This document shows, one piece after another, positions 61,852 to 63,913 of a DNA stretch of 64,000 nt. How positions within the stretch are numbered: the first letter of the stretch is position 1; the number at the start of each line of letters is the position of its first letter. The DNA is from Methanoculleus caldifontis. Lineage in GTDB: Archaea > Halobacteriota > Methanomicrobia > Methanomicrobiales > Methanoculleaceae. A model generated the notes under the pieces. That model was given only the letters and a program-made list of their open reading frames with translations. It was not told the origin of the DNA and ran no database searches. Location of the stretch: assembly GCF_032842345.1 (NCBI RefSeq), contig NZ_WBKO01000002.1, positions 454,208 to 518,207 on the forward strand, read 5' to 3'. Both the position numbers and the translations under genes were made by a program.

Positions 61852-62211
61852 TTACAGTACACAACGCCGGCAGTCCTGCGCCCCACAGGCGAGGTTCTCG
61901 ACCTTCCACCGGAGCGCCCACTGCTTGATATCCTTGATCACCCCGACGATCTCCAGCCCGCTCTCGGTGAGAGTGTACTCACTCCTCACGGGGACGGTCC
62001 CGGCCTCCACCCTCCGCTTGATAAGGCCTTCTTCCTCGAGTTCCTTCAGTCGGGCCGAGAGGACCTTTGCCGTGATCCCCGGGAGGCGGTCCTTCACCTC
62101 GGTGAACCGCCGGGTGTAGCCCTCCCCCTTATAGAGCTCGAGGATGATCAGGAGCGTCCACTTCTTTCCCAGGTACCTGACGGTCTGATTGACCGTACAC
62201 TCGTCCTGCAT
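61852..62211 (-). CDS. HxlR-family wHTH regulator, cysteine-rich
   Basis: 119 residues. MQDECTVNQTVRYLGKKWTLLIILELYKG then FTEVKDRLPGITAKVLSARLKELEEEGLIKR (HTH) and wing VRSEYTLTESG. Cysteines at C5 near the N-terminus and CGAQDCRRC at the end. HxlR regulators of this layout include thiol sensors of aldehydes or oxidants. It is divergent from hcp, with two palindromic operators between them (62249-62281), so it most likely represses hcp and itself. Confidence 0.85.
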   Translation of the reverse strand: MQDECTVNQTVRYLGKKWTLLIILELYKGEGYTRRFTEVKDRLPGITAKVLSARLKELEEEGLIKRRVEAGTVPVRSEYTLTESGLEIVGVIKDIKQWALRWKVENLACGAQDCRRCVL

Positions 62212-62248
62212 GGTATAGTTAGAGAAACCTTCTCCTACTTATACTCAA

Positions 62249-62263
62249 GTATCAAATCGATAC
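62249..62263. promoter_or_regulatory. HxlR operator, left copy
   Basis: GTATC-AAATC-GATAC, perfect five-base arms with a five-base spacer. Centre is 18 bases from the right copy. It lies between the shared TATA region (CTTATACTCAAG at about 62238) and the hcp ATG. Confidence 0.75.
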
Positions 62264-62266
62264 CTT

Positions 62267-62281
62267 GTATCCTAAAGATAC
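62267..62281. promoter_or_regulatory. HxlR operator, right copy
   Basis: GTATC-CTAAA-GATAC, same arms as the left copy with a different spacer. Together they form a typical paired-dimer site at the expected start of hcp transcription. Confidence 0.75.
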
Positions 62282-62296
62282 CATGGAGTGAGTACA

Positions 62297-63913
62297 ATGT
62301 TCTGCAACCAGTGTGAAGAGACGGCAAAGGGCCTCGGCTGCACCGTACGCGGCGTCTGCGGCAAGGACAAAGAGACCGCCGGGCTCCAGGACGTCCTGAT
62401 CTACGTCCTCAAAGGGCTCTCGGCGAGGAACCTCGCGGCGATGAAGAACGGCGGCGGAAACCCGGATGCCGGGAGGTTCGTCGGGGGATGCCTCTTTGCG
62501 ACCCTGACCAACGTGAACTTCGACCCCGCCCGCCTCCGCGATATGATCCGTGAAGCAGCCCGCATCCGCGACGCCCTCCCGGCGTCCGGGAGCGCGGAGC
62601 CCGACGCCTGCACCTGGGTGCCGGCAGGCCCCGCGGCGATCGCGGCAAAGGCGCAGGAGATCGTCGCCGCACGGGACGCCGTGGATCCGGACCTGCGGTC
62701 GCTCCACGACCTCCTCATCTACGGGCTCAAAGGGATAGGCGCCTACTCCCACCACGCCGCGGCCCTCGGCTACGAGGATCAGGAGATCGCGGCCTTCATG
62801 CAGGAGGGGCTTGCCGCCACGCTGCAGGACCTCACCGCCGGGGATATGGTCGGCTACGTGCTCGCGTGCGGCAAAGTCGGCGTCAAAACCTTCGCCCTCC
62901 TCGACGCCGCAAACACGACCGCCTACGGGACGCCGGCGATCACGACCGTCAGCACCGCGGCGGGCACGCGGCCGGGGATCCTGGTCACCGGCCACGACCT
63001 CAAGGACCTCGCCGACCTCCTCGAGCAGACCCGCGGAGCGGGCGTCGACGTCTACACCCACGGCGAGATGCTCCCGGCGCACGCCTACCCGGCCCTTGCG
63101 AAGTACGACCACCTCGTCGGGAACTACGGCGGCTCCTGGCCCTTCCAGCGGGAGGAGTTCGACCGGTTCAACGGCCCCGTCCTCGTCACCACAAACTGCC
63201 TCGTCCCCCCGAAGGACTCCTACCGCGACCGGGTCTACACCACCGGGCTCGTCGGGTATGCGGGGTTAAAGCACGTCGACGCCCCGGCAGACGGGAAGAA
63301 GGACTTCTCGGCCCTGATCGAGCACGCGAAGCGTTGCGAGCCCCCGCAGGATATCTCCCGCGGCGATCTCATCACCGGGTGCGCCCACGCCCCGGTCCTC
63401 GCCATCGCGGATACGGTCATCAGTGCGGTGAAGTCCGGCGCCGTCAAGCGGTTCGTCGTGATGGCCGGCTGCGACGGCCGGCACAGCGGACGGGACTACT
63501 ACACCCGGTTTGCAGAGGCTCTCCCCGCGGATACGGTCATCCTCACCGCCGGGTGCGCGAAGTACCGCTACAACAGCCTCGACCTTGGCGATATCGGCGG
63601 CATCCCCCGCGTCCTCGACGCCGGCCAGTGCAACGACTGCTACTCGCTCGTGGTCATCGCCCAGGCCCTCGCAGAAGCGTTCGGCGTCGGGATCAACGAC
63701 CTCCCGGTCTCCTACAACATCGCCTGGTACGAGCAGAAGGCGGTGCTCGTCCTCCTCAGCCTCCTCTCGCTCGGCATCAAAGATATCACCCTCGGCCCCC
63801 GCCTCCCGGCCTTCGTCTCGCCCGGTATCCTGAAGGTTCTCGTCGAGAACTTCGGGATCAAGGGGATCGCGACGGTCGAGGAGGACCTCGAGCGGATGGT
63901 GCCGGGGAACTGA
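62297..63913 (+). CDS. hcp: Hydroxylamine reductase / hybrid-cluster protein (Hcp)
   Basis: 538 residues. N-terminal 4Fe-4S cysteines [23 protein letters not shown], hybrid-cluster ligands in TGHDL, HGEML, TNC (NCLVPP), KYRYN and the [10 protein letters not shown] segment. In anaerobes it reduces NO or hydroxylamine and is nitrosative-stress related. Start ATG 62297 with GGAGTGA SD; the GTG at 62288 is weaker. Under the divergent HxlR-type regulator. Confidence 0.95.

Follow-up and report, generated by a model that had tools for sequence, protein, structure and literature searches.

The redox repressors YodB and QsrR of Bacillus and Staphylococcus share a winged-helix fold and the position of an N-terminal sensing cysteine with the methanogen HxlR protein described here, although they act on quinone or azo reductase genes whereas the candidate target of the methanogen protein is hcp, the gene for the hybrid cluster protein. 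YodB uses a 15-bp operator with 4-bp arms 7 bp apart and prefers TACT-N7-AGTA, and diamide joins its Cys6 to Cys101' across the dimer (PMC8063818). HxlR of B. subtilis belongs to the same Pfam family but is a formaldehyde-sensing activator with other targets. In the hcp-control section of a 2005 reconstruction, regulators are named for bacterial hcp genes only: HcpR, a CRP/FNR-family protein recognizing wTGTGAn6TCACAw, and NsrR, which control hcp together with nitrogen-oxide genes (PMC1274295). They likewise control hcp, but their protein families are unrelated to HxlR. Another methanogen produces abundant HCP although it has no notable source of NO (PMC10210160). A literature search of open-licence papers found none that treats HxlR together with the hybrid cluster protein.

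In the window, which is the whole 64,000-nucleotide stretch of Methanoculleus caldifontis DNA analysed here, divergent hxlR and hcp genes are separated by a short spacer, an arrangement found in Methanoculleus and many related methanogens (Table 1). From the hxlR start towards hcp, the spacer holds the element O0, a TATA region, the candidate operators O1 and O2, and the hcp ribosome-binding region. The hcp product matches over its whole length and scores above the curated cut-offs of NF003658 (788 bits, cut-off 367) and TIGR01703 (701 bits, cut-off 361), and the HxlR-like winged-helix domain PF01638 reaches 88.7 bits against a curated cut-off of 20.8. The locus falls outside the HcpR regulon, as wTGTGAn6TCACAw is absent from the spacer and the regulator is assigned by Pfam to HxlR and not to CRP/FNR. 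It apparently represents an ordinary kind of regulator in an undescribed role, namely an HxlR-type repressor of hcp.

Table 1. Features of the hxlR-hcp locus, in coordinates of the window.
Feature	Position	Strand	Sequence	Remarks
hxlR	61852..62211	minus		119-aa HxlR/DUF24 winged-helix regulator; Pfam PF01638, E=2.3e-25
O0	62213..62228		GTATAGTTAGAGAAAC	GTAT-N7-GAAAC; abuts the hxlR start codon
TATA-box region	62237..62244		ACTTATAC	TATTTATA in most relatives; conserved columns -10 to -6 relative to O1
Supposed third partial palindrome	62241..62252		ATACTCAAGTAT	ATACT-N2-AGTAT; overlaps the TATA box and an O1 arm
O1, candidate operator	62249..62263		GTATCAAATCGATAC	centre 62256
O2, candidate operator	62267..62281		GTATCCTAAAGATAC	centre 62274
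hcp	62297..63913	plus		hybrid cluster protein / hydroxylamine reductase, 538 aa; PF03063, E=1.4e-164

A preliminary description of this DNA had reported two perfect 15-bp GTATC-N5-GATAC palindromes with identical arms and centres 18 bp apart, and both proved exact. Only three exact copies of the motif occur in the 2.6-Mb genome, two of them being O1 and O2; the third was rejected as a further target, since it sits within a long open reading frame. On a two-site score with a maximum of 20, the window spacer reached 20, and none of 20,000 dinucleotide shuffles attained 18 or more. About 130 distinct hxlR upstream regions were examined, and the 104 distinct spacers with an adjacent hcp scored 12–20, while shuffles averaged 10.2 and did not exceed 15. 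The arms are thus conserved upstream of hcp in relatives, the point on which the preliminary description had made its proposal depend, and this conservation supports the proposal that a methanogen has operator-like sites in the spacer separating hcp from the gene of a cysteine-bearing HxlR protein. The core GTAT-N7-ATAY is kept throughout the order and in two further families. Its GTAT/ATA columns mostly carry 1.1–2.0 bits, as against columns between O0 and the TATA box that fall to 0.04–0.5 bits. The outer arm letters are weaker than the core, one arm base deviates in many genomes (GTATA/GTATG, GAAAC), and the O2 consensus among relatives is often GTATC-AAAAA-GATAC. A spacer whose repeated sites have been kept by evolution is very probably a dedicated on/off switch for hcp, as judged from the comparison of these sequences.

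A third partial palindrome overlapping the TATA region had also been put forward. This element, ATACTCAAGTAT, is present in the window but shared by just 14 of 102 spacers; we rejected it as an operator and read it as a junction of the TATA box with the left arm of O1. The third element that is conserved is a different one, O0. Of 98 Methanomicrobiales spacers next to hcp, 94 match it at 8–9 of 9 positions (a score of 8 is reached by 0.1% of shuffles); its position is fixed in 97 of the 98, and it is complete (9/9) in all seven loci of the Methanothrix family f22. O0 is a probable autoregulatory or start-site element, and it may be a promoter element instead because its arms are stepped by 11 bp rather than 10 and one of them is GAAAC. 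The TATA region may serve both directions, its presumed promoter role and orientation being read from the conserved columns. Archaeal promoters have an established usual distance from the TATA box to the transcription start, by which the hcp start is predicted near O1 and O2 and the hxlR start near O0; from this spacing we infer, in line with the preliminary description, that the palindromes lie at the hcp start.

Among 131 HxlR orthologues, C5, C109 and C114 are invariant, and C117 is present in 130, the remaining one having a gap at this position. C5 corresponds to the N-terminal cysteine typical of the YodB/QsrR/HypR type of HxlR/DUF24 redox sensors, and the GTAT-N7-ATAY sites display the 15-bp inverted-repeat geometry of the same subgroup, with 4-bp arms 7 bp apart. 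An AlphaFold2 model of HxlR adopted a winged-helix fold with a mean pLDDT of 81.7, declining to 57 in the last residue block that contains C114 and C117. Structure comparison returned reduced YodB as the best PDB match of this model, and the QsrR-DNA complex and HypR were also matched. The methanogen protein differs from YodB and QsrR in its GTAT/ATAC arms, in the C-terminal C-x4-C-x2-C motif that completes the four invariant cysteines, and in the tandem operators at a divergent archaeal promoter. None of three diverged HxlR homologues examined carries the C-x4-C-x2-C tail, and two of the three retain the N-terminal cysteine; the region aligned with B. subtilis HxlR does not include the C-terminal cysteine motif of the methanogen protein. 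A YodB-like mechanism is likely by analogy, because the operator geometry is the same and the cysteine arrangement comparable. The four-cysteine set is unusual, suggesting metal, Fe-S or disulfide sensing, and a bound cluster or zinc is speculation at this stage.

Among 232 genomes of the class, protein searches detected 117 with an hxlR orthologue and 119 with hcp. Both genes occur in 113 genomes, neither in 109 and only one in the 10 discordant ones, a count that ignores relatedness and to which physical linkage contributes. Where the pair has been rearranged, the sites accompany both genes. In G023, a transposase-like open reading frame of 407 aa separates hxlR from hcp (L021 / L062), and the array remains on the hcp side. 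Several hcp genes of Methanocorpusculum-like genomes are situated apart from hxlR, and three of them, in three genomes (L241-L243), retain operator-like arrays, whole or in part, with tandem scores of 13–16. Conversely, hxlR promoters located away from hcp have retained sites such as GTATC-TTTTT-GATAC (GTATCTTTTTGATAC) in Methanocorpusculum-like genomes. A second hcp type in these genomes (L231-L240) is without the array.

Several further rearrangements were observed. In four Methanocorpusculum-like loci (L156, L158, L163 and L167), hcp is found some 4.3 kb past hxlR; the intervening DNA has ABC-transporter-like frames, joined in L163 and L167 by a MarR-like frame. These four loci and L027, in which 1.5 kb was examined, have a lone GTATC-N5-GATAC-like site at the hxlR promoter. 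In two Methanocalculus-like loci (L026 and L101, in G046 and G067), the spacer with its array and the first hcp codons are duplicated around an insert that, on reading, seems to resemble remnants of a toxin-antitoxin pair. Fragments of hcp and hxlR lie side by side at G039:C1:485548-485939 as a decayed copy of the pair. The methanogen-type hxlR-hcp spacer also occurs on a contig titled Bacteroidetes bacterium (L321), which is likely mis-binned. An in-frame TGA in the hcp genes of G037 and G114 was considered and dismissed as an ordinary stop codon.

Further genomic targets of the motif, for which the preliminary description had advised a search, did not emerge: when a profile of the O1+O2 tandem was run against 119 genomes, all strong matches (E<1e-3) fell at hxlR/hcp promoters. 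The profile was built partly from the searched genomes, so the informative part of this result is the absence of other strong matches. The listed genomes of the same genus without an hxlR-hcp pair yielded no strong match to the tandem profile. The search used faster and stricter filters, by which weak or single sites could be missed. The M. caldifontis genome contains 58 sites matching GTATC-N5-GATAC with at most one mismatch, and single-site targets beyond hxlR and hcp are possible.

The regulator also has other neighbours. In the families f22 (Methanothrix) and f8 (probably Methanosarcinaceae), the gene opposite the hxlR orthologue is hcp in some genomes; in others it is an NIR_SIR nitrite/sulfite reductase, CGGC, ferredoxin or DUF166 gene, and O0-like and O1-like sites are present at the loci with other neighbours as well. 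In six f8 loci (L128, L130-L132, L135 and L136), it is divergent from an NIR_SIR-like gene, which in several cases is followed by CGGC and 4Fe-4S genes. Unlinked f8 hcp genes are mixed, some with operator-like elements and many without.

These results point to an HxlR/DUF24 repressor that is dedicated to hcp, regulates its own gene, has its operators in the spacer and governs essentially one promoter, a reading in which we have good though not complete confidence and from which we infer binding, repression, the role of O0 and the signal as follows. HxlR dimers would bind the 15-bp O1 and O2 sites (core GTAT-N7-ATAC), which flank the expected hcp start, and probably also O0 near the hxlR start. 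Bound HxlR would block TBP/TFB or RNA polymerase at a perhaps shared TATA region, keeping expression of both genes low. Release of the protein would follow when C5 near the N-terminus and C109, C114 and C117 at the C-terminus receive a reactive nitrogen, thiol or metal signal, and the Hcp then made would reduce NO or hydroxylamine. A nitrosative or thiol signal is plausible because of the four invariant cysteines and the nitrite/sulfite reductase neighbour in other families.

That HxlR responds to oxidants, electrophiles, metals or sulfite instead of nitrogen oxides, with Hcp serving another role, is a serious possibility falling somewhat short of an even chance, and it is compatible with the DNA part of the repressor reading. 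HxlR/DUF24 sensors with an N-terminal cysteine respond to quinones, diamide or aldehydes (PMC8063818, PMC6798810), the NIR_SIR genes beside the regulator in some relatives could reduce sulfite, and HCP is abundant in the methanogen that has no notable source of NO (PMC10210160). In some families hxlR adjoins genes other than hcp, so NO is not necessarily the signal. Against this, most loci have hcp as the partner gene, and bacterial Hcp has been linked to NO and hydroxylamine (PMC10210160, and PMC1274295 in its hcp-control section). The nitrite/sulfite reductase gene opposite this regulator in some relatives favours nitrogen-oxide control. In a bolder version, the four invariant HxlR cysteines would bind an Fe-S cluster or zinc between subunits, and the protein would define a new archaeal class of nitrogen-oxide sensor, with hcp as its target in Methanomicrobiales and nitrite/sulfite reductase genes as its targets elsewhere among methanogens; we consider this possible but less likely than not.

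The sign of regulation is uncertain because B. subtilis HxlR, named an activator in the PDB, acts in the opposite sense, and tandem sites are able to recruit as well as to block. Activation of hcp through O1 and O2 is nevertheless unlikely, considering that the relatives YodB and QsrR are repressors (PMC6798810) and that a start at the expected position, downstream of the TATA box and inside or between the two operators, would suit blocking. Likewise unlikely is the proposal that another transcription factor binds the palindromes and regulates hcp, with hxlR merely linked. Some unlinked f8 hcp genes with only partial operator-like elements would agree with it, but upon separation of the pair the sites accompany both hxlR and hcp, they persist beside hxlR when its neighbour is an NIR_SIR or DUF166 gene, they fit the HxlR family in geometry, and the second Methanocorpusculum-like hcp type lacks the array. 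A role of the palindromes as RNA hairpins, conceivable in that O2 would fall in or near the hcp 5' leader, was rejected as highly improbable, since in 34 aligned arrays 87.9% of cells were paired against 87.9% in shuffles, the covariation score was matched by 115 of 500 shuffles, and both divergent genes retain the sites.

The function of methanogen Hcp is still unsettled (PMC10210160). With a conserved, dedicated regulator whose candidate sites have been mapped, the question becomes testable, as the signal that releases HxlR would be the inducing stress. The four-cysteine signature would moreover extend the HxlR/DUF24 redox sensors, mainly bacterial so far, to anaerobic archaea.
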